A stretch of DNA of 25,038 bases from a virus: positions 1 to 25,038 of the IMG/VR virus record IMGVR_UViG_3300048828_000140; one strand, 5' to 3'. Below are positions 3,640 to 22,791 of the stretch, piece by piece; position 1 is the stretch's first letter; every line of letters begins with the position of its first letter. Under the pieces are notes generated by a model. That model did no database searches. It was not told the origin of the DNA and saw only the letters and a list, made by a program, of their open reading frames with translations. The translations under genes and the position numbers were made by a program.

Positions 3640-4184
3640 AACCAAGATGGGGCTATTTAATCACACCGTATGGGAGCGAATACAACAACCAAAAGACAAT
3701 AGGAGATCAGACACTAATCGTCAACACCTCTATAGAAGATGCCAGTTATGTGAACAGGCTGGGTGTTGTTTGTGCGGTGCCAACCACTGGAAGTAACGGA
3801 CCAGACTTAGGAGATATAGTGGTTTTACACCACAATGTTTTTAGAACATACTTCGACATGAAAGGTAATCAACGTAAAAGCAATGAGTACTTTCGTGACG
3901 ATTATTACCTAGTGAGTCCTGATCGCATATATATGTATAATGATGGAGAAGATTGGAAATGTACTGAAGGGTATTGCTTTGTTGGTCCTGTTGACTATAT
4001 ACAGTCTGGCGATTTATATAGGACAGAAAAGAAAAAAGAAGAACATGTGGGACTTATAAAGGTAAGCTCTACCTTTGACCCAGGAACAAGAGTAGGTTTT
4101 ACTAAGAACTCTGAGTATGAGTTTGAAATAGAAGGAGAGAAGATTTACAGAATGAGGGAGTCGGATATATGTTTATTAGTTTAA
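3636..4184 (+). CDS. Putative GroES/gp31-type co-chaperonin (182 aa)
   Basis: The ends of this protein follow the GroES (Cpn10) layout. Residues 6-11 (GYLITP) can form the first strand. A flexible stretch at 15-31 carries a hydrophobic LIV tripeptide at 27-29, where GroES has IVL and T4 gp31 has III for binding GroEL. NRLGVVCAVP then matches the GroES segment after the mobile loop, LGDIVVLHHNVFR matches V-GD-V-hydrophobic, and the end, VGFTKNSEYEF then YRMRESDICLLV, matches the GroES end with its M-SESDI-A-V. The middle (about 70-145) is a large insertion, so it is nearly twice the usual 95-111 residues. A T4 gp31-like role in folding the capsid protein fits its place beside terminase, portal and capsid genes. 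Family membership is inference from motif order; conservation of the loop tripeptide is the key point. Confidence 0.6.
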   Translation: MKPRWGYLITPYGSEYNNQKTIGDQTLIVNTSIEDASYVNRLGVVCAVPTTGSNGPDLGDIVVLHHNVFRTYFDMKGNQRKSNEYFRDDYYLVSPDRIYMYNDGEDWKCTEGYCFVGPVDYIQSGDLYRTEKKKEEHVGLIKVSSTFDPGTRVGFTKNSEYEFEIEGEKIYRMRESDICLLV

Positions 4185-4272: not shown

Positions 4273-4559
4273 GAGAAACTATATGTAGAGTAATAAGCGC
4301 AGGAGAACGTGCGGTAGAAGAGCTTATAAAGGTCGCAGAAGAGGAGATTATCACAGGCAAACCAGATGATGATCTTGCAGCAGATAGGTTGAAGAATGCG
4401 GCAGCAACAAAAAAGCTTGCGATATTCGATGCCTTAGAAATATTACAACGAATAGAACAAGAAAGAAATAAGCTAGATGGCAAGGACGAATCTGAAACAA
4501 GTTCAGGAAAAGATACAGGATTCCAAAGCTTCGCAGAGTCAAGAGGTAGAAAGTCTTGA
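4257..4559 (+). CDS. Candidate terminase small subunit (100 aa)
   Basis: A charged, almost wholly helical 100-residue protein immediately upstream of, and overlapping, the large terminase gene. That is the usual place for the DNA-recognising small subunit. It has an AGERAVEELIKVAEEEI helix, then a DDDLAADRLKNAAATKKLAI stretch running into a FDALEILQRIEQERNKL helix suited to coiled-coil oligomerisation, then a flexible Ser/Gly/Lys tail ending FAESRGRKS. No clear helix-turn-helix is recognisable by eye. Its last 83 bases also encode the N-terminus of the large subunit in another frame. The call rests on position, size and helicity, not on a recognised signature, so a different small packaging or regulatory protein is possible. 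Confidence 0.5.
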   Translation: MAEDIRETICRVISAGERAVEELIKVAEEEIITGKPDDDLAADRLKNAAATKKLAIFDALEILQRIEQERNKLDGKDESETSSGKDTGFQSFAESRGRKS

Positions 4560-6762: not shown

Positions 6763-9183
6763 ATGAACGGAGTTCAAACAAGAAACATTTTTGGTTTCCC
6801 TGATCAGTTGGAAAAGGATTCTATAAAAGAATCTAAAGAATACGGATTAAGAGTAGGTCAAGCGATAGAGTCGGAGTGGTTTAAAAAAGAAAGTGGGACA
6901 TCTCGCTTTTTTAGTAACAGAGATACATACCATAAACTAAGAACTTATGCTATGGGCGAACAGTCTGTGCAGAAGTATAAGAATGAATTAGCTATTAATG
7001 GAGATATATCTTATTTAAATTTAGATTGGACTCCTGTACCTATCATTCCTAAGTTTGTAGATATAGTTGTTAATGGGATGCAGCATAGAATGTATGACAT
7101 TTTTGCAGAAGCTGTTGATCCTATTAGCTCTAATAAGAAGCAAATGTATAAACTGAAGATTCAGTCAGAGATGAGAAACAAAGAAAACTTATCTGAAATG
7201 ACTGAGATGATCGGCATGGATATGTTTGATCAAGATCCATCTACATTACCACAGTCAAAAGATGAGCTCGAACTTCAAATGCAAATGGAGTACAAGGATG
7301 ATATTGAAATAGCTCAGGAGAAAAGTATTGAGAACGTTTTAAAAATAAACGATTACGACAGTGTAAAGACCAGGCTTAGTGAGGATCAAACCGTTATAGG
7401 TATATCCGCTGTTAAGCATAGCTATAATAATCATGATGGCATTAAGATTGATTATGTTGATCCTGCTAACTTAATATGGAGTCCGACTGAAGATCCTAAC
7501 TTTAATGACTGTTACTACTTTGGGGAAGTTAAGAATGTAAATGTTACAGAGTTAAAAAAGATAGACCCAAGTCTTTCACAGGAAGACCTTAAGGATATAT
7601 CTAAACTATCATCTAAGTTTGACTCTTACCAAGGGGTTAGAGGAGGTAATCAATCTGATAATCTTGATAAGAATACAGCTACACTTCTCTATTTCTGCTA
7701 TAAGACAGATAAAAATATAGTATATAAAAAGAAAAAGACTCCACAGGGTGGTGATAAAGTGTTAAAGAAAGACGATGGATTCAACCCACCTAAAAGCGAA
7801 GCAGCAAGATTTGAAAAACTTTCTAAAAGAATTGACGTATGGTACGAAGGTGTTCTTGTTCTAGGAACAAATCATCTATTGAAATGGGAACTAATGAAGA
7901 ACATGGTTCGTCCAAAGTCTGCAATCTCAGTTGCAAAGCCACCATTTATTGTCAGTGCGCCAAAAATGTACAGAGGTCAAATAGATTCTCTTGTAAAAAG
8001 AATGATTCCTTTTGCGGATCAGATTCAATTAACCCACCTCAAGCTTCAACAGGTAACATCGAAAATGATTCCTGATGGAGTATATATGGATATAGATGGA
8101 CTTAGTTCTATCAACATGGGTAATGGCGGTTCGTACACGCCTCAGGAGGCTCTTAACTTATACTTTCAAACAGGTTCTGTTATTGGTAGATCTCTATCAG
8201 AAGAAGGAGAGTTTAATAATGGCAAGGTTCCTATTCAGGAGCTTACATCTTCTGGTGCAAACGCTAAGATATCTTCTCTTATAAGTATATACAATTATAA
8301 CATGGGTATGCTTAGGTCTGTAACAGGACTTAATGAAGCTAGGGATGGGTCGATGCCTGATTCTAATTCATTAGTAGGTCTTCAAAAGTTAGCAGCGTTA
8401 AATTCAAACACAGCAACAAGACACATACTAATGTCTATTCTTGAGTTGACTAGAAGATTAGCAGAGTCTGTAACATACAGGATGTCTGATGTATTAGAAT
8501 ACTCACCTATGAAAGAGAGCTTTATACAAGCGATAGGTAAGTACAGCATGGATATAATTGATGAGATAAAAGATTTACATCTTCATGACTTCGGTATATA
8601 CGTTGAATTACATCCTGATGAAGAACAAAAGTCTGCGCTTGATCAGCAGATACAAGTTTCACTACAGCAAGGTAAGATAGATATTGATGACGTTATAGAT
8701 ATTCAATCTGTAAGAAATATAAAAGTAGCTTCTCAATTATTAAAGGTTAGAAAAAAACGTAGAGAAAAAGATGCTCAAGAAAGACAACAGAAAAACATAG
8801 AGCAGCAATCTCAAGCTAATCAAAGAGCAGCAATATCTGCGGAAGAAGTTAAACAACAAACATCTATGGCGCAGAAACAAGCTGAGATGGAAATTTTACA
8901 AATGAAATCTCAATTAAAGATCCAGGAGATGGAGAAAGAATTTGAGTTAAAAAGGATATTGATTTCAGAGCAAAAAGGTATGGATGCTGAGATAGTTGGA
9001 GCTAAAGGTTCTACTCAACTTGCTAAAGAAAAATACAAAGAAGACAGAAAAGACAAGAGAACCGCTAAGCAAGCATCTCAACAATCTAAACTAATACAAC
9101 AGAGAAAGCAAGACTTAGATCCGATAGATTTTGATGGTCAAGATTTGTTAAGCTCTGATTATAAAGGTATTACGGGTATCTAA
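6763..9183 (+). CDS. Portal protein (806 aa)
   Basis: Forms the dodecameric ring at one capsid vertex through which DNA enters and leaves. It follows the large terminase directly and precedes scaffold and capsid genes, the standard order. The N-terminal part has FFSNRDTYHKLRTYAMGEQS and LDWTPVPIIPKFVDIVVNGM, which I associate with portals of flavobacterial phages. The middle has the wing/stem-like region, including VDPANLIWSPTEDP and RPKSAISVAKPPFIVSAP. The last 130 or so residues (about 660-790) are a Gln/Lys/Glu-rich coiled coil (ERQQKNIEQQSQANQRAAI and following), unusually long and likely pointing into the capsid or serving as a docking barrel. The 806-residue length is large but in line with big-genome podoviruses of Bacteroidota. 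The final residues lead into an AT-rich 39-base gap. Confidence 0.88.
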   Translation: MNGVQTRNIFGFPDQLEKDSIKESKEYGLRVGQAIESEWFKKESGTSRFFSNRDTYHKLRTYAMGEQSVQKYKNELAINGDISYLNLDWTPVPIIPKFVDIVVNGMQHRMYDIFAEAVDPISSNKKQMYKLKIQSEMRNKENLSEMTEMIGMDMFDQDPSTLPQSKDELELQMQMEYKDDIEIAQEKSIENVLKINDYDSVKTRLSEDQTVIGISAVKHSYNNHDGIKIDYVDPANLIWSPTEDPNFNDCYYFGEVKNVNVTELKKIDPSLSQEDLKDISKLSSKFDSYQGVRGGNQSDNLDKNTATLLYFCYKTDKNIVYKKKKTPQGGDKVLKKDDGFNPPKSEAARFEKLSKRIDVWYEGVLVLGTNHLLKWELMKNMVRPKSAISVAKPPFIVSAPKMYRGQIDSLVKRMIPFADQIQLTHLKLQQVTSKMIPDGVYMDIDGLSSINMGNGGSYTPQEALNLYFQTGSVIGRSLSEEGEFNNGKVPIQELTSSGANAKISSLISIYNYNMGMLRSVTGLNEARDGSMPDSNSLVGLQKLAALNSNTATRHILMSILELTRRLAESVTYRMSDVLEYSPMKESFIQAIGKYSMDIIDEIKDLHLHDFGIYVELHPDEEQKSALDQQIQVSLQQGKIDIDDVIDIQSVRNIKVASQLLKVRKKRREKDAQERQQKNIEQQSQANQRAAISAEEVKQQTSMAQKQAEMEILQMKSQLKIQEMEKEFELKRILISEQKGMDAEIVGAKGSTQLAKEKYKEDRKDKRTAKQASQQSKLIQQRKQDLDPIDFDGQDLLSSDYKGITGI

Positions 9184-10437: not shown

Positions 10438-11775
10438 ATGTCTGTAACTATTTCAGGAGTACAAGGTGCATTAACACCAGCTCCGTCGAAAGCAACGCTT
10501 TCAAACAACTACTTAGGTTCAAGCATTGAGTTTACTTCTCAATACTTACCTGATGTTTATGAACAAGAATTTGAAAAATACGGAAACCGTTCTGTATCTT
10601 CTTTCTTACGTATGGTAGGCGCTGAGATGCCTTTCGCATCTGACGTTATCCAATGGTCTGAGCAAGGACGTTTACATTTAGCTGTAACTGGGGCAACTCG
10701 TTCTGCTGATGTAATCACTTCAAATGGTCACCCTTTCCGTGTAGGGCAAACTGTAATTGTTTCTGATGGTACTGACCAGGAGAAAGCAATTATTACTGCT
10801 ACTACTACTAACACGTTTACTGTTAAGTCTTACGAGAACGCTAACTTAGCTGCTGCAATTGCAACAACTGGATTAAAAGTATTTGCATTTGGTTCTGAAT
10901 TTAAAAAAGGAACTAACGGAATGAGCGGTAGCTTAGAGGCTGCTAAAGACATCCAAACAAATAACCCTATTATCATCAAAGATAAATATGAGGTTAATGG
11001 TTCTGACATGGCTCAGATCGGATGGATTGAAGTTACAACTGAGAACGGAGCTTCTGGATACTTATGGTACTTGAAGTCTGAGCACGAAACTCGTCAGCGT
11101 TTTGAGGATTATTTAGAGCTTTCTTTAATCGAAGGTCGTCCTGCTGCAAATGGATCAGGTGCTGCTGGTGAAGGATACAAAGGAACTAAAGGTTTATTCT
11201 ACGAAGTAGAAAACCGTGGTAACATTGCAACTGGATCTATCGCTGCTCGTACTGATATCGAAGAGTTAATCAAAGTATTAGACAAAGAAGGAGCTATTCA
11301 AGAGAACGTTATGTTTGTTAACCGTACTAAATCTTTCGAGATTGATACTGTATTAGCTGCACAAAACAACTCTGGAGCTTCAACCGCATCTTACGGATTA
11401 TTTGATAACGATGAGTCAATGGCATTAAGCTTAGGATTTTCTGGTTTCAACTTAGGATATGACTTCTATAAGACTGACTGGAAATACTTAAACGATGCTA
11501 CAACTGGAGCGTTAACTTCTGCTGTTGATGGTGTAATTGTACCAGCTGGTACTACTACTATCTACGATCAAGTACTTGGTAAAAATGCAACACGTCCATT
11601 CTTACACGTGAAGTATCGCAAGTCAGAAGCGGAAGATCGTAAGTATAAGTCTTGGGTAGTTGGATCTGCAGGAGGAGCTGGAATGTCTAGCGACTTAGAT
11701 GCAATGCAAGTACATATGTTATCTGAGCGTGCACTATGTGTACACGGAGCTAACAACTTCATCTTATTGAAGTAA
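10438..11775 (+). CDS. Major capsid protein, HK97-type (445 aa)
   Basis: Main shell protein. Evidence: position after the scaffold-like gene, length, a start of the form YLGSSIEFTSQYLPDVYEQ leading into EKYGNRSVSSFLRMVGAEMP and VIQWSEQGRLH, which I associate with Bacteroidota podovirus capsid proteins, and a strong terminator directly after. Residues about 85-145 form a small beta-rich insert (GHPFRVGQTVIVSDG, then KAIITATTTNTFTVKSYE). The C-terminal part, with YRKSEAEDRKYKSWVVGSAG, is likely the P/A-domain return. No N-terminal propeptide is evident. All 15 Arg codons are CGT (14) or CGC (1), while neighbours mostly use AGA/AGG, and Leu is mostly TTA: a sign of strong translational selection in a very highly expressed gene. 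The leader before the ATG lacks a Shine-Dalgarno motif. Confidence 0.9.
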   Translation: MSVTISGVQGALTPAPSKATLSNNYLGSSIEFTSQYLPDVYEQEFEKYGNRSVSSFLRMVGAEMPFASDVIQWSEQGRLHLAVTGATRSADVITSNGHPFRVGQTVIVSDGTDQEKAIITATTTNTFTVKSYENANLAAAIATTGLKVFAFGSEFKKGTNGMSGSLEAAKDIQTNNPIIIKDKYEVNGSDMAQIGWIEVTTENGASGYLWYLKSEHETRQRFEDYLELSLIEGRPAANGSGAAGEGYKGTKGLFYEVENRGNIATGSIAARTDIEELIKVLDKEGAIQENVMFVNRTKSFEIDTVLAAQNNSGASTASYGLFDNDESMALSLGFSGFNLGYDFYKTDWKYLNDATTGALTSAVDGVIVPAGTTTIYDQVLGKNATRPFLHVKYRKSEAEDRKYKSWVVGSAGGAGMSSDLDAMQVHMLSERALCVHGANNFILLK

Positions 11776-12639: not shown

Positions 12640-12669
12640 AAGGGGGTCTCAAAAATGGGACCCCTTTTT
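12640..12669 (+). terminator. Strong intrinsic terminator before the connector genes
   Basis: AAGGGGGTCTC (12640-12650) pairs with GGGACCCCTTT (12657-12667) around an AAAAAT loop: an 11-bp stem with two G-T wobbles. The T-run at 12665-12669 is partly inside the stem. It separates the head-associated gene from the next transcript. Confidence 0.9.
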
Positions 12670-12675
12670 ATTTTG

Positions 12676-12683
12676 TATATTTG
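12676..12683 (+). promoter_or_regulatory. Bacteroidota-type -7 promoter box, almost abutting the start codon
   Basis: TATATTTG matches TAnnTTTG exactly and starts only 7 bases after the terminator T-run. The ATG at 12688 is 4 bases beyond the box, so a start site at the usual spacing would fall at or within the start codon, giving a leaderless or near-leaderless mRNA. A -33 TTTG is not evident; that position lies in the terminator stem. Confidence 0.55.
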
Positions 12684-12687
12684 TTTC

Positions 12688-13377
12688 ATGATTAACCACG
12701 TAAGAAATACAGTCTTAACTATTCTCAATAAAGAGAACAGAGGATTCCTAACACCGGCTCAGTTTAATAGCTATGCCAAATACGCACAGCAGCTAATCTT
12801 TGATGACTACTTTAATGAGTTTGAAAAATATCAAACACTAGACAATAATAGAAGAGTACATAGTGGCACAGGTGACATCAAGGGGAGACTAATGCAGAAG
12901 ATAGAGAAATTTATAAAGACATCTACCGTATCAGAGGAGTATGGGTATTACTCTCAGCCTTCTGATTTATATAAAATTCAAAGAATAACATATTCAGGTA
13001 AAAACGTAGAACATGTAACGCCTTTAAAAAAGGTTTATTTAGATCTCTCAAATATAGCTGGACCTAGTGAAGAGTATCCTTCGTACTGTATGGAGGAATC
13101 TAATATATACTTATACCCTTCATCTCTTGATGATGATATAAAGTTAATGTATGTAAGGAAACCTTTAGATCCAAAGTGGACATATCAAACGATAGGAGAA
13201 AACCCTATTTACAATCCATCAGCTTCAGATCACCAAGACTTTGAGTTATTTGCAGATGATGAATCAAGATTAATCACAGAAATCCTTAAGCTTACAGGTC
13301 TCACAATTAGAGAACCACAGATTGTTCAGGCAGGTACTGGACTAGAGCAGCAGGAAGAACAAAGAGATAATGTATAA
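12688..13377 (+). CDS. Head-tail connector / ring protein candidate (229 aa)
   Basis: Probably one of the proteins joining the portal to the short tail. An in-frame ATG at 12655 lies inside the terminator stem and upstream of the promoter box, so I take the start at 12688 (MINHVRNTVLTILNKENRGF). The N-terminal half is helical (FLTPAQFNSYAKYAQQLIFD, DIKGRLMQKIEKFI). The middle is beta-rich with SQPSDLYKIQRITYSGKNVE and ESNIYLYPSSLDDDIKLMYV, the pattern of phage adaptor/tail-tubular-A-type proteins. The end has HQDFELFADDESRLITEILK and a Gln/Glu-rich tail. It overlaps the next gene by one base (TAATG). Placement between head and nozzle genes supports a ring role; the exact equivalent (T7 gp11 or a crAss-like ring protein) is uncertain. 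Confidence 0.6.
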   Translation: MINHVRNTVLTILNKENRGFLTPAQFNSYAKYAQQLIFDDYFNEFEKYQTLDNNRRVHSGTGDIKGRLMQKIEKFIKTSTVSEEYGYYSQPSDLYKIQRITYSGKNVEHVTPLKKVYLDLSNIAGPSEEYPSYCMEESNIYLYPSSLDDDIKLMYVRKPLDPKWTYQTIGENPIYNPSASDHQDFELFADDESRLITEILKLTGLTIREPQIVQAGTGLEQQEEQRDNV

Positions 13378-14234
13378 TGGCACTAACAGATCAGCAATAT
13401 TACAACGATAGTAGCAACTGGGGAAATAATCAGTTTGTTTTAATTAAAGATGTCATAAACAACTTCATGGCGTTTTATGTTGGAGAAAGTAAAGTTATAG
13501 ATAATGTGTCTAGATATGACGTATTATTTCACGCGAAGAGAGGTCTTCAGGAATTACATTACGACGCACTAAGAGATATAAGAGCACTAGAACTAGACCT
13601 TCCAGATGACCTTCAATTAGAACTTCCTAAGGATTTTGTAAGATTAGTTAGACTGTCCTGGGTAGACGATAGAGGTAGGTTGCATCAAATGATGGTAGAT
13701 AACGACACAGCTATGCCTACTGCCTACTTACAGGATAATAATTTCGATATAATTTTTGATTCAAACGGAAATGCAACAGAGGGTACTTCTGTTGTTGACA
13801 ATAAAAGATCTCAAATAAGCGACAATGAAACCGGAACTCACAAATCTTTATCAGATGAAATGTTTGGTGGTAGATTTGGAATGCTTACCAATAAGTCTAA
13901 CGTCAATGGAATGTATAACATTGACAAAAGGTTGGGTGTGCTAAGATTAAGCACAGAAGTAAAAGGTAAAACTATTGTGATTGAATACATAACTGATGGA
14001 CTAGAAGGTCTTGAAGAAAATGAAATCAAGATTAACAAAATGGCTGAAGATTTTTTATATAAATACATTGCTCATCAAATTGTTTCACATAAATTTGGAG
14101 TTCAAGAATACATTGTTAGAAGATTAAAGAATGACGCTTTTGCATCAATGAAAAATATGAAGATTAGAATGATGGATATTCATCCTTTAGATTTAGCACA
14201 AGCATTGAACGGAAGAAACAAGTGGATTAAGTAA
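13377..14234 (+). CDS. Second connector / ring protein candidate (285 aa)
   Basis: The protein begins MALTDQQYYNDSSNWGNNQF and continues with a helical VIDNVSRYDVLFHAKRGLQE and HYDALRDIRALELDLPDDLQ. The order resembles the N-terminal helical bundle of T7 gp11/ring-type adaptors, followed by a beta-part (LELPKDFVRLVRLSWVDDRG; GVLRLSTEVKGKTIVIEYIT) and a C-terminal helical region (NKMAEDFLYKYIAHQIVSHK). It is coupled on both sides by TAATG-type one-base overlaps: to the ring candidate before and the nozzle protein after. This supports fixed stoichiometry in one assembly. The assignment is by position and fold pattern, not by a defining motif. Confidence 0.6.
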   Translation: MALTDQQYYNDSSNWGNNQFVLIKDVINNFMAFYVGESKVIDNVSRYDVLFHAKRGLQELHYDALRDIRALELDLPDDLQLELPKDFVRLVRLSWVDDRGRLHQMMVDNDTAMPTAYLQDNNFDIIFDSNGNATEGTSVVDNKRSQISDNETGTHKSLSDEMFGGRFGMLTNKSNVNGMYNIDKRLGVLRLSTEVKGKTIVIEYITDGLEGLEENEIKINKMAEDFLYKYIAHQIVSHKFGVQEYIVRRLKNDAFASMKNMKIRMMDIHPLDLAQALNGRNKWIK

Positions 14235-17200
14235 TGGGTAAAGTAAAAAATTTATTTGTAGAAGGCAAAATGAACAAGGATCTCGATGAGAGACTTATTC
14301 CTAAGGGTCAATACATTGATGCTTTAAATGTTAAGGTTGGTAACTCAAGTGATTCAGATGTTGGAGCAATAGAAAACTCTTTATCAAATAAAAAAATAAC
14401 AGATCTTTACTTTGGCGATAATGCAGAATGCATTGGGTCTTGTACTAATCCAGCAGATAAAAGAATTTATTGGTTTATTGTAAGTGATAGCGGATCTCAT
14501 ATTGCTGAATACAATCACAACAATGATCACTCTTCTATAATATTACAAGATAATAGAGTAGGAACTACAAACGTTTTAAGATTCAGTAAAGGAGACCTTA
14601 TTGATTGCAATGTATTGATTGATGACGATAATGAAAAAACCTATCTTTACTTTACGGATGGAATAACGCCTCCAAAAAAAATAGAGATAGAGGATGCTAA
14701 GGCATTAACCAATCATGAATTTACTTTCGATGATATATCTGTTATTGTAAAGCCACCTATCAATCCTCCTAAGATTGATCCTAAGAAAACTGAAGAGGAA
14801 CTTGAGAGAAAAAATAATCTAAAAGAAAAGTTTATTATGTTTTCTTATAGATATAAGTACAAAGACGAACAGTACAGCGCTTTATCTCCATTTACAAATG
14901 TTGCTTTTTTACCACAGAAATATAAGTTTAATTATAAGTCACACGTTTTAGAATGTATGGTCAACGACTACGACAGTGTTGATGTTACTTTTAATACAGG
15001 TGATAAAAATGTTGTAGAAGTAGATGTTGTTTTTAAGGAGTCTGGTCAGAATACCATATACGTAGCCAAGTCTTTTAATAAATATGATGAGGGATATAGT
15101 GATAATGAAGAAAAAACTTTCACCTTTTCAAACAACCAGATATACAAAGTATTACCAGAGAAAGAAATTTTCAGACTATACGATAATGTTCCTTTAACTG
15201 CCAAGACTCAGGAAATAATAAACAATAGATTAGTTTACGGAAACTATACAGAAAATTATGATATTATAGATGAGTCTGGAAATGAGGTAGTACCTGACAT
15301 AGAACTGACATACTCTCAGGAAGTTTCAGAAATAAACAACCCATACCAGTCTGTAAAAAGTAATAGAGATTACGAGGTGGGAATTGTATATCTTGATGAA
15401 CATGGTAGAGCTACAACTGTTTTGTCTGGTGGAGATAATTCAGTTTACACTAAGCCGTATTCCTCGATAACAAAAAATAGCCTGTATGCTATTGTTAAAC
15501 ACAAGGCACCTAAGTGGGCAAAATATTATAGATTCTTTATAAAAGAAACAATATCTGATTATCACAGCATTTCATCAAGCACCTTTCATATTGGAGATGA
15601 TGAGAATGATATATATGTTAAACTTGGTGGTGATGATATAAACAAAATTAAAGAGGGTGACTTTATAACTATGAAGAGAGGAACTGACGGCGTATTAAGA
15701 ATACCGGAACAGTTCATGGTTAAAGATGTAGAGAAGAAAGAACGAAACTTTTTAGACTACGATGAAAACGCTACCAACACAGAGCAGGAACCTGGGTTGT
15801 ACATGGCGCTAAAACAAAGATCAAGCTTTTTAATTCAGGCAGATAGCTTTACGGAATATAATTTTGATCAAAGAGTTTATGCTAAATGGGCCATCCACCC
15901 ATTAACCACACCATATCACAATGTAACTACAGGTCCTTATTTTTATGGATTTGAAGATGACACAAATGACATAAACTTAGTTAGTTCTACTTATCCTGCA
16001 TCTGGAGAAAAAAATGACATATTTAGGGTAGAGATAGAGATATCAGAAAAAGATGTTGTTGCCGATAAGTTTAGATACAGAGTAAAATCTAGAGGTAAGT
16101 ACTACGAAAATAACGAAGATAGCGAATGGAATGGCGAGTGGACAAACTGGTCAGATGAAATTACTTGCTCTACAAGTAACATAGATATAGACATCGCACA
16201 GGATGGAAATGGAGTGCAGCAAAAGATAGTAATAAACTTCACATCACCAACAGGACATAACGTAGGTGATAAATTTACATTCACATATAAGCCAGCGTAC
16301 TCATGGAGAGCAAACACTTCTGTAGATGGAGGTAAAAGAGCTTATACAAACGTAACGTTTCCAATTGGAGATGCAGGGAAGGTTTTAGAGGGATCTTTTG
16401 CTACTATTGACACTCATGAAATAGAAAACTCACGTAATGAAATTTCCACATCAACTGAAACAGTCTATGCATCAGAAGATTATGAAACATTCGAGGAGTA
16501 TTATTGGGAGGAAAGGATATATGAAAGTATAGTGTCTCAAGGTCTTGGAGAGCATCATATATCTTTTCATAGAGGACAACAAACAACCGGACAAACAAAT
16601 CCTCAATACAAAACCCTAACAACTAACACATCTCACGCAGAGATAATGGTTTATGAGTCAAAAAACTCTAGGCCACATAAATATCAGGCAGCTCCTGCTG
16701 CCACATTAACTATAGAGTTTAATCAAACACAAGGAACTAATTCTACTTTCTTAGCTGAAACAAAATCAGAACCAAAAAACACAGAGGTGTATTATGAGGT
16801 TGGTAAAACTTATGAAGTTACTAACTTTGGCTATCATAAAGGAGATTTAGATGAGGGAGACATTAGTCAGGATCATAATGTAAATGCAAGGATTAAGATT
16901 GATTTCTTTAATTGCTTTGCATGGGGTAATTCACATGAGAGTATTAGAATTAAAGACTCATTTTTTGGAAACAAATATTCTTTTATTACAAGACCATCTA
17001 CAACTATAGATAAGTATCAAGAAAACGAACGTAGAGCTTCTTTAACGTACTCAAATGTGTATGATCAAACAACTAAGTACAATGGCCTTAATGAATTTAA
17101 TCTATCGACTGCAAACTATAAGGACTTAGATGATGCTGACGGTGATATTCAAAGAATAATTTCTAGAAATTCAGACTTAATAGTGTTTCAAGAAAACAAA

Positions 17201-18406
17201 ATATCTAGGGTCTTATATAATAAAAATGTTTTATTCAGCGCTGGAGGAGACGGTAGCGTTGCTCAAACCAATGAAATACTTGGACAGCAAATACCATATC
17301 TTGGTGAGTATGGGATTACTAGATCACCTCATTCAATCGCCACATGGGGAGGAAGAATATATCTTGCTGATACAAGAAGAGGAGCTGTTCTTAGATTGTC
17401 TCAAGACGGAATAACAGAGCTATCTCAATATGGAATGAGAGATTGGTTTAGAGACAATATGAAAAGCTCATTGGAGTCTAAAATTATTGGAGGTTATGAC
17501 CCTGAAAATGGTCAATATGTTTTATCTATTCAAACACCAACAATTGAGTGGCGTGAAGAAAGTGTTGATTGTGAAAACTACACATGGGAAATAGATGTAG
17601 TAGAGTGTATTCCAGAAGGAACAACTACAACTACAACTACGACTACAACGACAACTACTTTACCCACATTTGACTGCGCCAATGCTGATTTTGTTTTGAT
17701 AAACGGACAGACTGGATTTAACACTAGCTTATACAGCACGGTATCTGAAGGGACAATTACATCAGTATCTCCCTCTACTTACCAGGCGGGAACTAATACT
17801 TATACAGCCACTATAACAGTTCCATCTGGATACGCTAATGCGGGACAGTCTGTGACTTGTACTGATACAGCAGTAGGAACTTCTACTACAACAACCACTA
17901 CCACGACCACGACCACGACCACGACCACAACTTTAGCAACTTTTAATTGTGATGATATGGTATTTACAATGAGCAACGGATCAGCAGGGACTTCAACAAA
18001 CGGTCAAGGAACGACAAGCGATGGAACTATAACATCAATCAGTCCGTCCACATATGTAGGTGGAACTAGCGTATATACTGCTACCATAACAATACCTGCA
18101 GGTTATGCAAACTCTGGTGATTCTTGTACAAAAACCGCTTCAGCAGTAGGAACAACCACGACCACAACGAGTACAACTACAACTACGACTACTGCAGCGA
18201 GTACTTGCTCTTATTATAGATTTACAAATACGTCAACTGGAGAATCAATAACACAATTCATTTACGTACCTTGCGGAGAGTCGACACCTGTATCAGTGAA
18301 TACGGTAGGTCAATATGATTTCGTGCTACGATGTGCAGAAGATAGTCCCGCACCTTATATTTCTTCAGGAACTGGTTTAATAACGGTTCAAAACGAAGAC
18401 TGTTAG
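14234..18406 (+). CDS. Tail nozzle/stabilisation-like protein with mucin-like C-terminal extension (1390 aa)
   Basis: Residues 1-1120 or so look like the nozzle of short-tailed phages (T7 gp12, P22 gp10, muzzle of crAss-like phages). The start has DERLIPKGQYIDALNVKVGN with DVGAIENSLSN. Propeller-like strands follow, including RIYWFIVSDSGSHIAEYN. The late core has SRNSDLIVFQENKISRVLYN, GITRSPHSIATWGGRIYLAD and GGYDPENGQYVLSI, the last a recurrent nozzle motif. After this the protein does not stop. It adds poly-Thr tracts, two 72-residue domains with a Cys near each end, a third Thr/Ser tract and a Cys-rich end (ASTCSYYRF to NEDC). This extension looks exported from the nozzle surface as a fibre-like or glycan-bearing arm. 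It is coupled to the ring gene before it. The nozzle role is well supported; the extension's job is unknown. Confidence 0.8.
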   Translation: MGKVKNLFVEGKMNKDLDERLIPKGQYIDALNVKVGNSSDSDVGAIENSLSNKKITDLYFGDNAECIGSCTNPADKRIYWFIVSDSGSHIAEYNHNNDHSSIILQDNRVGTTNVLRFSKGDLIDCNVLIDDDNEKTYLYFTDGITPPKKIEIEDAKALTNHEFTFDDISVIVKPPINPPKIDPKKTEEELERKNNLKEKFIMFSYRYKYKDEQYSALSPFTNVAFLPQKYKFNYKSHVLECMVNDYDSVDVTFNTGDKNVVEVDVVFKESGQNTIYVAKSFNKYDEGYSDNEEKTFTFSNNQIYKVLPEKEIFRLYDNVPLTAKTQEIINNRLVYGNYTENYDIIDESGNEVVPDIELTYSQEVSEINNPYQSVKSNRDYEVGIVYLDEHGRATTVLSGGDNSVYTKPYSSITKNSLYAIVKHKAPKWAKYYRFFIKETISDYHSISSSTFHIGDDENDIYVKLGGDDINKIKEGDFITMKRGTDGVLRIPEQFMVKDVEKKERNFLDYDENATNTEQEPGLYMALKQRSSFLIQADSFTEYNFDQRVYAKWAIHPLTTPYHNVTTGPYFYGFEDDTNDINLVSSTYPASGEKNDIFRVEIEISEKDVVADKFRYRVKSRGKYYENNEDSEWNGEWTNWSDEITCSTSNIDIDIAQDGNGVQQKIVINFTSPTGHNVGDKFTFTYKPAYSWRANTSVDGGKRAYTNVTFPIGDAGKVLEGSFATIDTHEIENSRNEISTSTETVYASEDYETFEEYYWEERIYESIVSQGLGEHHISFHRGQQTTGQTNPQYKTLTTNTSHAEIMVYESKNSRPHKYQAAPAATLTIEFNQTQGTNSTFLAETKSEPKNTEVYYEVGKTYEVTNFGYHKGDLDEGDISQDHNVNARIKIDFFNCFAWGNSHESIRIKDSFFGNKYSFITRPSTTIDKYQENERRASLTYSNVYDQTTKYNGLNEFNLSTANYKDLDDADGDIQRIISRNSDLIVFQENKISRVLYNKNVLFSAGGDGSVAQTNEILGQQIPYLGEYGITRSPHSIATWGGRIYLADTRRGAVLRLSQDGITELSQYGMRDWFRDNMKSSLESKIIGGYDPENGQYVLSIQTPTIEWREESVDCENYTWEIDVVECIPEGTTTTTTTTTTTTTLPTFDCANADFVLINGQTGFNTSLYSTVSEGTITSVSPSTYQAGTNTYTATITVPSGYANAGQSVTCTDTAVGTSTTTTTTTTTTTTTTTTLATFNCDDMVFTMSNGSAGTSTNGQGTTSDGTITSISPSTYVGGTSVYTATITIPAGYANSGDSCTKTASAVGTTTTTTSTTTTTTTAASTCSYYRFTNTSTGESITQFIYVPCGESTPVSVNTVGQYDFVLRCAEDSPAPYISSGTGLITVQNEDC
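17621..17659 (+). repeat. Poly-Thr tract 1 (13 Thr codons)
   Basis: ACN triplets, mostly ACA ACT alternation, encode 13 successive Thr residues between the nozzle core and the first 72-residue domain. The mixed codons show it is not a recent single-triplet expansion. Confidence 0.9.
17666..17881 (+). repeat. 72-codon domain repeat, copy A
   Basis: Starts TFDC and ends CTDTAVGT. The core GTITSVSPSTYQAGTNTYTA and PSGYANAG is shared with copies B and C. Cys at positions 4 and 65 could form a disulfide. Flanked on both sides by Thr tracts. Confidence 0.85.
17885..17932 (+). repeat. Poly-Thr tract 2 with ACCACG hexamer array
   Basis: Sixteen Thr codons. Bases 17900-17926 are four and a half perfect copies of ACCACG, a strong candidate for in-frame replication slippage. 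Links domain copies A and B. Confidence 0.9.
17939..18154 (+). repeat. 72-codon domain repeat, copy B
   Basis: Starts TFNC and has GTITSISPSTYVGGTSVYTA, then PAGYANSG, and ends TASAVGT. Same length as copy A. Cys residues at positions 4 and 63. Confidence 0.85.
18152..18193 (+). repeat. Poly-Thr tract 3
   Basis: Six Thr, one Ser, seven Thr. Leads into the Cys-rich C-terminal module of the nozzle protein. Confidence 0.85.
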
Positions 18407-18433
18407 GGGGGTACGGTTAGCTTAATTAGATTG

Positions 18434-18449
18434 TAATTAAATATAAAAT
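18434..18449 (+). promoter_or_regulatory. Shared A/T-rich leader motif, copy 2
   Basis: TAATTAAATATAAAAT, identical to 9209-9224, ends 2 bases before the glycosyltransferase ATG at 18452. The 45-base gap has no terminator-like hairpin, so the gene may also be read through from the nozzle gene. Confidence 0.4.
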
Positions 18450-18451
18450 AA

Positions 18452-19363
18452 ATGAAATATATTTGTGCTCAACCAGCAACCAAATACTTTGCCTGGCAAA
18501 TAGATGTGATGCTATTCAGTTTCATGTCTGTAGGAGTTAAGTCACACGACATAGATGTAATATGCTCTAACAATGAAGGTATTGATGAGCACTTTAATAA
18601 GCTAATAAAAAAATACCCTGGCGTTAGGTTTGTTTTTTACGAAGATGAAAGAGAATATAAAGGATATGTGCCTTCTATAAAACAACACTTGCTAGCTAAG
18701 CATCTTAGGTCATTTCCTGATCTTCAAAGAGGCCCTATATTTTTACATGATTCGGATATAGCTTTAACTAAACCTATTGATTTTGATGGACTTTTAGATG
18801 ATAACATCTGGTACTACAGTGACACGTCTTCATATCTTAATTACGAGTACATAATGACAAAGGGTAGAGATGTTCTTGAGGCTATGTTAGATATAGCAGA
18901 CATATCTGAGGATATAGTTAGGGGTAATAGCAGAAATTCAGGAGGAGCTCAGTATCTTATGAAGAATGTTACACCAGAATTAATGAACGAGGTAGTTGAA
19001 ATGTCTCACAATTTATATGAACCAATAAGGGACATGAGTGAAGAAAAGAAAAAGAAAGACCCTAATCACTATCCAATTCAAATATGGACTGCGGAAATGT
19101 GGGCGATGCTTTGGGTGCCATGGAAAAAAGGAATAATGACTATTTGCCCAAAGGTATTAGATTTTTGCTGGGCAACGGATATTAAAAATAAATGGCATAA
19201 AGTTTCTATATATCATAACGCGGGGGTTACTAAGCCTTCAGAAGATATGTTTCACAAAGGCTCATATGTTAATAGTATGCCTGATCTTTCTATTCAGTTA
19301 GAACCTAAAAGATGCTCTTACATGTATTACAATTTACTTAAAAATGCTCTAGCTGAAATTTAG
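18452..19363 (+). CDS. Putative glycosyltransferase, GT-A-like with DxD motif (303 aa)
   Basis: Likely transfers a sugar from a nucleotide-sugar donor. The start MKYICAQPATKYFAWQIDVM resembles the first strand and helix of small GT-A enzymes related to peptidyl-Ser/hydroxyproline glycosyltransferases of eukaryotes. FLHDSDIAL carries a D100-S-D102 metal/nucleotide-binding DxD after a hydrophobic strand. Later parts fit the acceptor side: NSRNSGGAQYLMK, IQIWTAEMWAMLWVPWKKGI with clustered Trp, a second aromatic patch around FCWATDIKNKWHKVSIYHNA with a late His, and HKGSYV. No signal peptide or membrane segment, so it acts in the cytoplasm on newly made proteins or precursors. It lies between genes encoding Thr-tract virion proteins, which suggests these tracts as acceptors. 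Family-level identification is by motif and recalled N-terminus; acceptor and sugar are inference. Confidence 0.65.
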   Translation: MKYICAQPATKYFAWQIDVMLFSFMSVGVKSHDIDVICSNNEGIDEHFNKLIKKYPGVRFVFYEDEREYKGYVPSIKQHLLAKHLRSFPDLQRGPIFLHDSDIALTKPIDFDGLLDDNIWYYSDTSSYLNYEYIMTKGRDVLEAMLDIADISEDIVRGNSRNSGGAQYLMKNVTPELMNEVVEMSHNLYEPIRDMSEEKKKKDPNHYPIQIWTAEMWAMLWVPWKKGIMTICPKVLDFCWATDIKNKWHKVSIYHNAGVTKPSEDMFHKGSYVNSMPDLSIQLEPKRCSYMYYNLLKNALAEI

Positions 19364-19371
19364 TATCTTTG
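19364..19371 (+). promoter_or_regulatory. Bacteroidota-type -7 promoter box
   Basis: TATCTTTG fits TAnnTTTG. It starts at the base after the glycosyltransferase stop, and 15 bases separate it from the ATG at 19387, so the transcript leader would be only about 10-12 bases. No clear -33 TTTG. Confidence 0.5.
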
Positions 19372-19386
19372 TAGTAAAACCTTATA

Positions 19387-20220
19387 ATGCCTAAGACAGG
19401 AGTAAAAGTCATACAAACCTTAAGAAAGTATGTTAATGGAATTAAGACTGGTGAAACCAAGATTAATACTATTTCTGATCAATACTATATTCAACAATAC
19501 TACGATTTTTTAGATTGTGTAGTGAGGGATGAAGATGTTAATGAAACAACAACAACTATAGCACCAGAAACAACAACCACTACTACGACTACGACCACCA
19601 CAATAGCTCCAGGTTCAACATTTGATTGTAGCACAGCTCAATTCACGATGTTAGATGGAACTGTTGGTGAAAGCACTTCAGGCACAGGGTCTGTTGTAAG
19701 TGGTGTGATTGAAAGCATTGTACCAAATGTTTACCTAATCGGAGATAATGTATATACAGCTGCGGTTAGAATACCTGCGGGATATACAAACGGAGGATCA
19801 AAAGTTTATTGTACTATTAGCGCTACAGGTACTGCCGCAACAACTACCAGTACCACTAGTACTACCACTACAACAACCACAACAACCACAACAACTACTA
19901 CTACTACTACTACAGCCGCTCCTGTAGCTACTGCTTTTGGTTATTCATCACAAGTCTTTGAAGGATATAGTGCCTCTGTTAAAACATATTATTGTAATTC
20001 TTATGGTAGCCAATTCAATAAATATAACTTTAGTGCGTACCACGATGGTACAGGTACGTATCCTGCAGTAGGAGATACATTATATTATAATTCTAGTAAA
20101 ACTAGTTTATTTACAGGACTATCAACTCACACAATTGGAACATCATTTAAGATTTATTATGGACCGGTGGTTAAAGTAAATAATACTACAGGAGTAGTGG
20201 AACAAGTAGAGTACTGTTAA
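19387..20220 (+). CDS. Modular Thr-tract virion protein 1 (277 aa)
   Basis: A probable surface-exposed virion protein built in modules. Residues 1-50 (TGVKVIQTLRKYVNGIKTGE and on) form a domain shared with the next gene. A split Thr tract (4 plus 11 Thr) follows, then the 72-residue domain also found twice in the nozzle protein (TFDC start, PAGYTNGG, Cys at 4 and 65), then a long Thr/Ser tract including 18 consecutive Thr. The C-terminal module of about 95 residues (ATAFGYSSQVF to VVEQVEYC) has paired Cys and GDTLYYNSSKTSLF. No signal peptide. The shared N-terminal part may dock it to the tail; the variable C-terminal part may bind a receptor or glycan. It has its own promoter candidate and ends 1 base before the next gene. 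The exact role is unknown. Confidence 0.6.
   Translation: MPKTGVKVIQTLRKYVNGIKTGETKINTISDQYYIQQYYDFLDCVVRDEDVNETTTTIAPETTTTTTTTTTTIAPGSTFDCSTAQFTMLDGTVGESTSGTGSVVSGVIESIVPNVYLIGDNVYTAAVRIPAGYTNGGSKVYCTISATGTAATTTSTTSTTTTTTTTTTTTTTTTTTAAPVATAFGYSSQVFEGYSASVKTYYCNSYGSQFNKYNFSAYHDGTGTYPAVGDTLYYNSSKTSLFTGLSTHTIGTSFKIYYGPVVKVNNTTGVVEQVEYC
19570..19602 (+). repeat. Poly-Thr tract 4 (11 Thr codons)
   Basis: Eleven mixed ACN codons after a shorter run of four Thr codons (19546-19557), separated by IAPE. Precedes domain copy C. Confidence 0.85.
19618..19833 (+). repeat. 72-codon domain repeat, copy C
   Basis: Starts TFDC, has GVIESIVPNVY and NVYTAAVRIPAGYTNGG, ends TISATGT. Exactly 216 bases, like copies A and B in the nozzle gene 1.5 kb upstream, but clearly diverged in DNA, so the duplication is not recent. 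Confidence 0.85.
19840..19914 (+). repeat. Poly-Thr/Ser tract 5 (longest)
   Basis: Three Thr, Ser, two Thr, Ser, then 18 Thr. Includes ACAACC-type hexamers and a run of six ACT codons (19894-19911), both prone to slippage in frame. Confidence 0.9.
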
Positions 20221-20221
20221 T

Positions 20222-21004
20222 ATGGCAAACACTGGATATAAGAGAGTAATAACTCTAAGGAAATATGTAGACGGAGTCGCTACAACATCGACAAAAGCTA
20301 ATCACGAAGGAGATGAAGATTATGTTGCAAACTTTTATGACGATAGTTGTATAGAGTCAGGACAAGCAACAACAACGTCAACAACAACTACGTCTACCAC
20401 TACGTCGACAACAACTACGTCTGCGCAAGAAGGTGTTGGGAAAATAGCAGCGGTTGCTTTATGTACTGGTTCTAGTGGATCTTGTATATCTCCACTGACA
20501 AGAGACATTCAAAATGTGATTTATATTAAAATCAAAAGTGACGATGACCCGTCAATAACATTCTTAAGAAAGGGAAGCTATGATGTTGGATCGTTAAGAA
20601 ATCAAAAATACGTTATTGATAACAGTCCAACTAATTTAAAATATTTAGATGGAGGGATGTCTGGATTTTGCTACAACAGAGACGAAGGAATTGTTGATGA
20701 AGCCACTATAATAAACAGCAATGAGTCTATTGACGCAACTACACCTGCGGGAAGTGGTGACTACTTAGTTTCTGCTATAAGTATACTTGATGCTGGATCT
20801 GGTGAGGAAGCGGCTAACACTTATTACCCTAAAAACACCCCACTATTTACATTGTATTATAATCCTAGTGAATCTAGAATGGAGTGGATGATATCTAACT
20901 GTCTAAATATAGGCGGTAACCAAACAATAGATAACGAAACCTTAGGTGGTGGTGGAAGAAATGCAAATGAATATTTAAAAAGAAGTGATTCTGCTGAGCA
21001 ATAA
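20222..21004 (+). CDS. Modular Thr-tract virion protein 2 (260 aa)
   Basis: The first 45 or so residues (TGYKRVITLRKYVDGVATTS and on, with a later D-Y-YD-C) match those of the preceding protein: TG-K, TLRKYV-G, TK-N, D-Y and YD-C line up. A Thr/Ser tract (20369-20422) links to an unrelated C-terminal domain of about 190 residues. That domain contains KIAAVALCTGSSGSCISPLT, VIYIKIKSDDDPSITFLRKG, GFCYNRDEG, and ends in a Gly/Asn-rich tail. The two proteins thus share a base and differ at the tip, as in modular fibres. I do not recognise the C-terminal domain. The start is 1 base after the previous stop; the next gene starts 1 base after this one. Confidence 0.6.
   Translation: MANTGYKRVITLRKYVDGVATTSTKANHEGDEDYVANFYDDSCIESGQATTTSTTTTSTTTSTTTTSAQEGVGKIAAVALCTGSSGSCISPLTRDIQNVIYIKIKSDDDPSITFLRKGSYDVGSLRNQKYVIDNSPTNLKYLDGGMSGFCYNRDEGIVDEATIINSNESIDATTPAGSGDYLVSAISILDAGSGEEAANTYYPKNTPLFTLYYNPSESRMEWMISNCLNIGGNQTIDNETLGGGGRNANEYLKRSDSAEQ
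20369..20422 (+). repeat. Thr/Ser tract 6
   Basis: Eighteen codons with Ser every four or five residues (T3 S T4 S T3 S T4 S), built from ACA/ACG/TCN. A period of 12-15 bases is visible: ACAACTACGTCT occurs twice. Confidence 0.85.
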
Positions 21005-21005
21005 C

Positions 21006-21740
21006 ATGGCAACAAACAATACAATTACATACGACGAAAAAGTAAAAGGGTGGACATCGTTTCATTCATATTACCCTGAGTTTATGGTAAACATGAACAA
21101 TGAGTTTTTTACATTTAAGGAAGGTCAAATATATATACATAATCAAACAGATGGTGATCGTAATACTTTCTACGGAGAGACCGGCAATACTGAAGTTGAA
21201 TTTGTAGTAAACGAATCTCCTTCTGATGTTAAAATACTTAAAGCTATTTCAATAGAGTCAAATAATAAAACATGGGACACTACCATAACGACAGATTTAG
21301 ATGAAGGTCACGTAAATAAAGAGTCATTAGAAGATAAGGAAGGAATGAACTATGCTTACATAAGAAGAAACCTTGACTCTGATATTGACACATCTTTATT
21401 ATCCGTTCAAGGTGTTGGGGAGATGGCTTCACTATCTTCAAATACACTAATGTTTGGAACTGTTCCACAAAACGTATGTGTTGGTGACATAGCTTACTAC
21501 ATGGTAAACAATGATTATGTAAAGATTGGATTGATAGACACACTCACAGGGACAACATTAGTACTTAACTCACTCAGTAGTGTGCCAAATCCAGGAGACT
21601 TTATATTTTGTGTAAAAAATAATTTAGCAGAAAGCTACGGATTAAAGGGTTATTTTGCAAGACTTAGAATGATTTCTGAATCTTTGGATCCTTGCGAGTT
21701 ATTTGCTGTAAATACAGAGGTGGTTAAAAGCTTCCCTTAA
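21006..21740 (+). CDS. Virion structural protein, tail-associated candidate (244 aa)
   Basis: I place the start at 21006 (MATNNTITYDEKVKGWTSFH), 1 base after the previous stop, rather than at an in-frame ATG at 20985 that lies inside the preceding gene. The segment YDEKVKGWTSFHSYYPEF, followed by NEFFTFKEGQIYIHNQ and a FYGETG turn, is a pattern I recall from tail/nozzle proteins of Bacteroidota podoviruses. In some of those the segment lies within a larger nozzle or muzzle protein. The middle is beta-rich (PSDVKILKAISIESNNKTWD), with a conserved-looking EGMNYAYIRR. The end contains a small barrel-like stretch (VCVGDIAYYMVNNDYVKIGL to PGDFIFCVKN). It probably assembles at the tail tip or nozzle. 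Exact role unknown. Confidence 0.6.
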   Translation: MATNNTITYDEKVKGWTSFHSYYPEFMVNMNNEFFTFKEGQIYIHNQTDGDRNTFYGETGNTEVEFVVNESPSDVKILKAISIESNNKTWDTTITTDLDEGHVNKESLEDKEGMNYAYIRRNLDSDIDTSLLSVQGVGEMASLSSNTLMFGTVPQNVCVGDIAYYMVNNDYVKIGLIDTLTGTTLVLNSLSSVPNPGDFIFCVKNNLAESYGLKGYFARLRMISESLDPCELFAVNTEVVKSFP

Positions 21741-21747
21741 TATTTAC

Positions 21748-21755
21748 TATATTTG
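21748..21755 (+). promoter_or_regulatory. Bacteroidota-type -7 promoter box, near-leaderless
   Basis: TATATTTG followed by C matches the extended TAnnTTTGC form. The ATG at 21761 is 5 bases past the box, so transcription would begin at or next to the start codon. It lies in the 20-base gap between genes, and no -33 TTTG is clear. Confidence 0.55.
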
Positions 21756-21760
21756 CAGTA

Positions 21761-22162
21761 ATGAAATTTAATGTAAGAGCTGTACAAGAAGTTGATTACA
21801 ATAATACACTAAAGCCCTGGTGGGATTCATGGGGATGGGTAGCACCACCAAAAGATTTCTTACCAGAGACAGGTATAATAATATCAAAAAATGATATAGA
21901 TATCTGCGCAGGCTTTATGTATTTAACAAATTCTAAGGTAGCTCTAACAGAGTTTGTTATATCAAATAAAGAATACAAAGATAAAGACAGATCTGAAGCT
22001 ATAGAGTTGTTAATAGATTGCTTAATAGAACTAGCAAACAATCACGGATGTAAGTACGCTCATGTGATTTTAAAAAACAAGAGTCTTCTTAATAAATATA
22101 AGGAAGCGGGTTACATAGAGTCAGACACTAACGTTATAGAAATGATAAAAGTATGGCAATAG
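21761..22162 (+). CDS. GNAT-like acetyltransferase family protein (133 aa)
   Basis: Small GNAT-fold candidate. It opens MKFNVRAVQEVDYNNTLKPW with a WWDSWGWVAPPKDFLPE stretch. Strands then run IIISKNDIDICAGFMYLTNS and VALTEFVISNKEYKD, followed by a helix RSEAIELLIDCLIELANNHG, a strand YAHVILKNKSLLNKYKEAGY, and the end. The order (strand with CAGF, strand 4 with FVISNKEY, pantetheine-side helix, then LLNKYKEAGY before the last strand) is that of GNAT enzymes, but the acetyl-CoA loop (Q/R-x-x-G-x-G/A) is replaced by KDRSEA. Binding may therefore be weak or absent. Related proteins sit beside ejection-protein genes in podoviruses; T7 gp13 has been compared with this fold. Substrate unknown. It has its own promoter candidate and overlaps the next gene by 10 bases. 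Confidence 0.65.
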   Translation: MKFNVRAVQEVDYNNTLKPWWDSWGWVAPPKDFLPETGIIISKNDIDICAGFMYLTNSKVALTEFVISNKEYKDKDRSEAIELLIDCLIELANNHGCKYAHVILKNKSLLNKYKEAGYIESDTNVIEMIKVWQ

Positions 22163-22791
22163 CGACAGGGACAGCAATAGCACTAGGTGTTAGTGCGGCT
22201 ATGGGAGCAGGGCAAGCAATAGCTGGAGGTATAAAAGCCAAGAAGGCAAAGAGAGCTCTTTCAGATTTAGAAAAAAACAGACAAGAACTTAAAGGCTCTG
22301 AAAACCTAAGAGTGTCTACATTAGGAGCGGAACTACAAGCTAGAGAAGCTTCAAGGAGATTCGCAACATCTGTAGATGCACTTCAATCAGGTGGAGTTAG
22401 AGGTGTAGTCGGAGGTTTAGCAAGAGTGGACGCTGGACAACAAAGGGTTTCTGCTCAAATTGCAGCTGGACTAGACCAACAACAAGCAACTATCGAGCGT
22501 ATGAAGTTCCAGGAACAACAGTCTCTTAGACAAATGCAAGAATCAAGAGAGAGTCAAAAGATGGGGATGTTAATGGCTGAACAACAACAAGGTCAGCAGC
22601 AAGTGGCAGCGGGTATATCTCAAGTGGGATCTGCCGCAATGACTGGTCTTATGTCAATGGATTCAATGCAATCAGAGGCCCCTAGAGTTAATGATGGATT
22701 GTTAGATAGTAATCCGTTTTCAGGGTCATATAGAGACTACAAAAAATCAGGTGGTAATATGTCAAGAAGAGAATTTAGAAACCTTAATTAA
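22153..22791 (+). CDS. Internal virion / ejection protein candidate (212 aa)
   Basis: Residues 1-28 are a small-residue hydrophobic helix (MAIATGTAIALGVSAAMGAG and AIAGGIKAKKAK): a glycine/alanine-zipper segment able to enter a membrane, as in the T7 gp14 class. A long Gln/Arg/Glu-rich helical region follows (LEKNRQELKGSENL, QQQATIERMKFQEQQSLRQM), with a Ser/Gly-rich end. Size, N-terminal membrane helix and coiled coil fit a protein packaged inside the capsid and injected to form the DNA channel across the envelope. It starts 10 bases inside the preceding gene and ends 1 base before the next, itself an ejection-protein candidate. No enzymatic motif. Function is inference from pattern and context. 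Confidence 0.65.
   Translation: MAIATGTAIALGVSAAMGAGQAIAGGIKAKKAKRALSDLEKNRQELKGSENLRVSTLGAELQAREASRRFATSVDALQSGGVRGVVGGLARVDAGQQRVSAQIAAGLDQQQATIERMKFQEQQSLRQMQESRESQKMGMLMAEQQQGQQQVAAGISQVGSAAMTGLMSMDSMQSEAPRVNDGLLDSNPFSGSYRDYKKSGGNMSRREFRNLN

Follow-up and report, generated by a model that had tools for sequence, protein, structure and literature searches.

Virion glycosylation by phage enzymes is already known. In the descriptions given by papers that cite Freeman et al. 2023, mycobacteriophage virions are glycosylated by phage-encoded glycosyltransferases, Che8 gp110 and Corndog gp38; subunits of the capsid and of the tail tube are reported to carry the glycans at their C-terminal ends, and the glycans reportedly act as an antibody shield (PMC12619734, PMC12363180). 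Here we describe a gene cassette in IMG/VR virus record IMGVR_UViG_3300048828_000140 (the window, 25,038 bases, whose positions serve as coordinates throughout) that most likely constitutes a phage-encoded virion O-glycosylation module, made of an enzyme of the protein family PHROG 4417 and of tracts of threonine and serine (Thr/Ser) in virion proteins. The phage very probably sugar-coats its own particle, since the pairing of enzyme and tracts recurs in unrelated phages while close relatives devoid of the enzyme also lack the threonine strings. A phage-encoded glycosyltransferase is what the cassette shares with Che8 and Corndog, as far as the citing papers describe their enzymes; unlike those systems, the phages carrying PHROG 4417 have another host group.

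The cassette lies in a crAss-like structural module, recognised by its Pfam and PHROG matches: genes for the terminase large subunit (TerL), the portal, the capsid and ring-type proteins follow one another in the expected order, together with crAss muzzle domains. As in the crAssphage muzzle protein, MUZn and MUZ_C domains are present, but the window holds them in two genes, and the slot between these contains the 303-residue enzyme and two poly-Thr genes, tightly packed and on the + strand throughout. Because positions 20985-21740 encode the muzzle C-terminal part, the operon reaches at least to 21740. A scan of 13300-22400 for promoter-like sites returned fewer sites than shuffled sequences did and so lends no support to separate promoters in the cassette. 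The features of the cassette and its borders are:

14234-18406, + strand: muzzle protein N-terminal part, 1390 amino acids (Pfam crAss_MUZ, 4.7e-8; phrog_14478, virion structural protein, 2e-229)
17621-17659, + strand: Thr tract 1 (T13), near the C end of the muzzle N-terminal part
17660-17881, + strand: inter-tract domain of 74 amino acids, copy 1, muzzle N-terminal part
17879-17932, + strand: Thr/Ser tract 2 (TST16), muzzle N-terminal part
17933-18154, + strand: inter-tract domain of 74 amino acids, copy 2, muzzle N-terminal part
18152-18193, + strand: Thr/Ser tract 3 (T6ST7), muzzle N-terminal part
18452-19363, + strand: predicted GT-A glycosyltransferase, 303 amino acids, PHROG 4417 (phrog_4417, 1.3e-70), with DxD D100/D102 and H255
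19387-20220, + strand: poly-Thr virion-type protein 1, 277 amino acids, two tracts flanking the third domain copy
19570-19602, + strand: Thr tract 4 (T11), poly-Thr protein 1
19612-19830, + strand: inter-tract domain, copy 3 (73 amino acids), poly-Thr protein 1
19840-19914, + strand: Thr/Ser tract 5 (TTTSTTST18, 25 residues), poly-Thr protein 1
20222-21004, + strand: poly-Thr virion-type protein 2, 260 amino acids, one tract
20369-20422, + strand: Thr/Ser tract 6 (TTTSTTTTSTTTSTTTTS, 18 residues), poly-Thr protein 2
20985-21740, + strand: muzzle C-terminal part (Pfam crAss_MUZ_C, 2.2e-14), with a probable ATG start codon at 21006; borders the cassette slot on its downstream side

An earlier note on this DNA had pointed to six Thr or Thr/Ser tracts in three genes, with up to 18 Thr in a row, and to a protein with the motif HDSD between the first and the second of these genes. 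Translations of the open reading frames (ORFs) confirm both: the tracts span 11-25 residues in three genes of the virion operon, the longest Thr-only run counts 18, and HDSD occupies residues 99-102 of the protein encoded at 18452-19363. The longest Thr/Ser runs of the three proteins (18, 25 and 18 residues) were equalled in 0/5000 residue shuffles per protein, where the maxima were 9, 11 and 9. Thr codons within the tracts are mixed (ACT 30, ACA 29, ACC 17, ACG 15), and the DNA shows just short, imperfect arrays of tandem repeats; it therefore seems to be the peptide, and not one slipping triplet, that is under selection. The muzzle N-terminal part and poly-Thr protein 1 have in common the 74-residue domain, found in three copies between tracts, and the two poly-Thr proteins share a similar N-terminal segment of ~45 amino acids.

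The enzyme aligns with phrog_4417, annotated as of "unknown function", over residues 1-299 (profile positions 1-291 of 293), and this profile is matched by 68/68 of its relatives, whereas the window enzyme has no Pfam or NCBIfam family match. Relatives of the enzyme occur in 74 phage records, the majority from phages of Lactobacillus, Enterococcus, Staphylococcus and Lactococcus, and in Chryseobacterium phage MA9V-3, with further ones in IMG/VR and in Bacillota genomes. The proposal that this is a GT-A enzyme was borne out by structure prediction: an AlphaFold2 model built from a 68-sequence alignment reached a pLDDT (predicted local distance difference test) of 96.6 and a predicted template modelling score (pTM) of 0.93. 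Its best matches among solved structures are glycosyltransferases throughout; Foldseek returned WbbM, UGGT, glycogenin and XXYLT1, and a structural aligner ranked glycogenin on top (Z 15.9, 222 residues aligned, root-mean-square deviation 3.3 A), followed by Skp1 alpha-galactosyltransferase (Z 15.5) and LgtC (Z 15.2). Glycosyltransferases emerged from the solved structures by fold comparison alone; searching those structures by sequence returned none.

Within the motif HDSD, D100 and D102 are invariant in 25/25 and 68/68 sequences, and H255, together with a number of further residues, is likewise invariant in 68/68, down to 31% identity, a pattern of sequence conservation that fits an active site. 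By analogy with glycogenin, D100, D102 and H255 would bind a metal ion.

Glycogenin is an enzyme that glycosylates protein. To it and its CAZy family GT8 (glycogenin-1, LgtC) the phage enzyme is similar in its predicted GT-A fold, with Z scores of 15-16 over ~220 residues, and dissimilar in sequence, with 7-10% identity. Thus the family search suggested in the earlier note yielded a fold but not a GT8 sequence match, the Pfam profile PF01501 (Glyco_transf_8; CAZy GT8) finding none of the 68 family members at E 1; profile-profile comparison with four bacterial GT8-type proteins gave a weak probability of 7.6%, yet aligned the DxD. The best weak Pfam match of the enzyme family is to the hydroxyproline O-arabinosyltransferase family (HPAT, PF23452), in keeping with the peptidyl-Ser/hydroxyproline-transferase-like start suspected in the earlier note, but it concerns 2/68 members (best E 0.0044) and stays below the Pfam cut-off: in locus L056, residues 37-122 align to HPAT 43-128, spanning the DxD region, with 16.9 bits against a cut-off of 23.9. 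The HPAT profile did not match the window protein, and its direct search in 49 records gave nothing, nor did control genomes give a match. By its predicted fold, the PHROG 4417 protein is a GT-A glycosyltransferase, outside the named families compared.

Enzyme and tracts occur together far beyond the window. Taking as a tract any Thr/Ser run of at least 6 residues with at least 4 Thr in a same-strand ORF of the enzyme locus, we found one in 71/76 non-redundant enzyme loci versus 2/65 control loci (contigs of at least 9 kb picked by poly-Ala; p 3e-31), and the tract gene adjoins the enzyme gene in 61 of the 76. Five loci are tractless by this rule (L022, L033, L056, L070 and L093). L022 carries TTVAPTTVKP repeats, in L070 the opposite strand contains TTTTTTEAPTTTTTTT, and L033 and L056 are situated at contig ends; the fifth is taken up below. 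The tracts of Firmicutes phages are for the most part tails at the C-terminus of three proteins: the major capsid protein, a small protein of connector type and the major tail protein. Most of the annotated phages examined have the enzyme gene within their structural operon: it adjoins the major capsid protein gene in Enterococcus 4995_1, a poly-Thr ORF after a capsid protein with such a tail in iLp84, and the major tail protein gene in Enterococcus phiFL1A, Staphylococcus PMBT8 and Lactococcus 1706, the last with a Thr-tailed capsid protein upstream. In L009, an ORF at 8302-8874, two genes before the enzyme, has a family-2-like glycosyltransferase start (MTIEFIIPTFNRVN) and possibly serves glycan extension.

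Crass-like relatives of the window were fetched by the ring-type protein, blind to enzyme and tract. Strong tracts were present in 5/5 of the loci with the enzyme, and a run of at least 8 in 0/24 of the intact loci without it, L224 and L231 showing a single 7-residue run each. L221 and L260 had been considered as exceptions and were rejected, their contigs ending before the expected position of the enzyme. The muzzle consists of separate MUZn and MUZc ORFs in 27/27 relatives where both were found, and in several relatives lacking the enzyme the two genes are adjacent, which makes the stretch between them a variable slot. Insertion of the cassette into an intact muzzle gene was considered and rejected, as relatives devoid of the enzyme already encode the muzzle in two genes.

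The same split is seen on homologous proteins of Firmicutes loci, which were fetched by the major tail protein core with the tail removed and at least 1.2 kb of downstream sequence required. The enzyme was scored with a hidden Markov model of its core; BLAST also matched a small ORF, which some prophages encode as a fusion with the enzyme. Enzyme and C-terminal poly-Thr tail of the major tail protein were both present in 17 loci, both missing in 53, and in no locus did one occur alone (17/0/0/53; p 1e-16 before any correction for relatedness). Capsid proteins of these loci bear a tail in 15/16 cases with the enzyme versus 0/53 without; the sixteenth (L167) is a split gene, whose fragment carries the tail. 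On the tail-protein tree, also built with the tail removed, the best tree gives 9 switches of the enzyme and branches with strong support require at least 4, four forced pairs alone being too few for a sign test to reach significance; at each change of the enzyme the poly-Thr tail switches too. The link between enzyme and tracts drawn in the earlier note is thus supported by the GT-A fold, by co-occurrence and by the joint switches. The correlation that it had suggested examining proved nearly perfect from enzyme to tract (71/76; 17/17 versus 0/53; 5/5 versus 0/24) but fails from tract to enzyme.

This failure is one of several observations that weigh against an O-glycosylation module. A reverse survey started from (ACN)12 in contigs no shorter than 20 kb. 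Among the 41 such contigs, 34 have a real Thr tract in an ORF, of which 7 encode the enzyme and 27 do not, with the enzyme in 0/42 poly-Ala control contigs. In three of the loci with tails (L313, L354 and L361), no glycosyltransferase was recognised in the DNA read. The 39 kb Firmicutes prophage L152 has a connector-type protein with a T10 tail and no enzyme; its capsid and tail proteins have no poly-Thr tails, and it may be what was left when the enzyme was lost. The one clear case of the opposite kind is L093, with the enzyme present and no (ACN)7 anywhere in its 281 kb contig. The C-termini of the capsid and tail proteins of Che8, known to be glycosylated, contain no poly-Thr tract. Finally, neighbouring enzyme and tract genes may be transferred jointly as a cassette, which would inflate naive p-values.

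Family-2 glycosyltransferases above the cut-off were found in 10/27 of the tract contigs without the enzyme versus 2/42 controls (p 0.0009), an enrichment that is suggestive, given that tract and control contigs differ in size and host range. In three loci where PHROG 4417 is absent, a glycosyltransferase of the family-2 type lies directly beside a poly-Thr gene (L346, 4243-5067; L349, 3895-4731; L363, 3749-4549), and such enzymes could represent a second, parallel system. ORFs neighbouring tracts also include matches to N-acetylglucosamine (GlcNAc) transferase and GT25, while neighbouring ORFs of the controls have no glycosyltransferase among the families listed. The family phrog_2295, seen beside tracts in five loci, was tried as another glycosyltransferase and dropped, since it matches parts of very long ORFs.

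The frequency of poly-Thr in the absence of PHROG 4417 (27/34) would suit an explanation in which the tracts are mere flexible linkers or low-complexity tails and the enzyme targets something else, for example host cell-wall polymers (for receptor change or superinfection exclusion) or DNA; phage glycosyltransferases acting on host surfaces or DNA are well known (PMC12619734). The earlier note had itself allowed that the tracts may be no more than linkers. This explanation does not predict, however, that C-terminal tails come and go together with the enzyme when homologous proteins are compared, be they major tail proteins (17/0/0/53) or capsid proteins, and the Firmicutes tails, being C-terminal, have nothing to link. 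The position of the enzyme within the structural operon and the enrichment of family-2 glycosyltransferases in tract viruses lacking it (10/27 versus 2/42) argue against it as well, and we regard it as unlikely.

Mere linkage could also produce co-occurrence, if enzyme and tract genes travelled as one recombination block with no functional tie. They are indeed neighbours in 61/76 loci, and in most enzyme-carrying phages of the tail-protein set the enzyme gene lies directly 3' of the tail-protein gene that bears the tail. Yet capsid tails encoded about five genes upstream of the enzyme obey the same split, and in L100, L126, L138 and L140 the enzyme follows the capsid gene and the tail of the tail protein is encoded five genes downstream. 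The partners are moreover unrelated proteins (muzzle, major capsid and tail proteins, connectors) in unrelated phages, and linkage alone leaves the constant content of the block unexplained; we therefore hold this to be very unlikely. Least probable to us, and by any measure remote, is that the protein has kept a GT-A fold for a non-catalytic role, such as a binding or assembly protein for tails. A similar fold is by itself no proof of activity, and in the examples read, L142 and other Bacillota prophages, the C end of the enzyme is fused to a small ORF of the structural operon (like MSKYEVIHDFKDL...); phages without the enzyme have this ORF on its own, following the tail protein. Against such a role, DxD, H255 and other residues are invariant in 68/68 sequences down to 31% identity, as fits an active site.

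Under the O-glycosylation reading, the PHROG 4417 protein would be a cytoplasmic GT-A glycosyltransferase, probably dependent on a metal and a nucleotide sugar, which would attach sugars to Thr (and Ser) of the homopolymeric tracts on newly made virion proteins before assembly. The acceptors in the window would be the muzzle protein and the two neighbouring small proteins, giving a mucin-like sugar coat at the tail tip. In Firmicutes phages, the C-terminal poly-Thr tails of major capsid and major tail proteins would be the acceptors, giving coated capsids and tails. The earlier suggestion of a decorated tail surface accordingly suits the muzzle of the window and is too narrow for other phages, where the capsid has tails too. 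Such a coat, presumably exposed at the surface, may shield the virion from antibodies or host factors, contribute to hydration and stability, or change adsorption.

We lean, though not strongly, towards a broader interpretation, in which the enzyme and the poly-Thr tag form a portable system across unrelated virions (crAss-like phages, Firmicutes siphophages, Herelleviridae). Its enzyme would be a sequence-novel GT-A family, possibly distant kin of eukaryotic peptidyl-hydroxyproline glycosyltransferases, able to modify any Thr-tagged virion protein, and family-2 enzymes would fill the same role elsewhere.

The remainder of the window is consistent with a structural module, its capsid and ring labels resting on position and on PHROG "virion structural protein" matches:

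340-3282: tail-fibre type protein, 980 amino acids, with DUF7483 and laminin-G-like lectin domains, encoded upstream of the terminase
3636-4184: GroES-like co-chaperonin match within the structural module (phrog_13932, 1.8e-13)
4477-6756, + strand: terminase large subunit
6763-9183, + strand: portal
10438-11775, + strand: presumed capsid protein, a conserved virion structural protein
12655-14234, + strand: two ring or adaptor-type genes
21761-22162: ORF of 133 amino acids (phrog_17252), acetyltransferase-like by eye

The tail-fibre type protein also shows a weak match to the fold of a neurotoxin receptor-binding N-domain, probably through a shared lectin fold. The phrog_17252 ORF comes after the muzzle C-terminal part in L002, L004 and L008, though not in every relative.

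Compared with the mycobacteriophage systems, three things appear to be new: this family of enzymes, an acceptor made of homopolymeric Thr, and the range of unrelated virion types covered. In the papers searched we found no literature on phage poly-threonine together with a glycosyltransferase, which is no proof of absence. Our analysis offers a likely function for PHROG 4417, a family recurrent in phages of Enterococcus, Lactobacillus, Lactococcus and Staphylococcus and in crAss-like aquatic phages, and would explain why capsid and tail proteins of certain phages end in threonine runs. Phages that are already in culture are predicted to have sugar-coated virions, with a bearing on phage immunogenicity and adsorption, and a glycosyltransferase together with its dedicated poly-Thr tag could make a useful protein-labelling pair.

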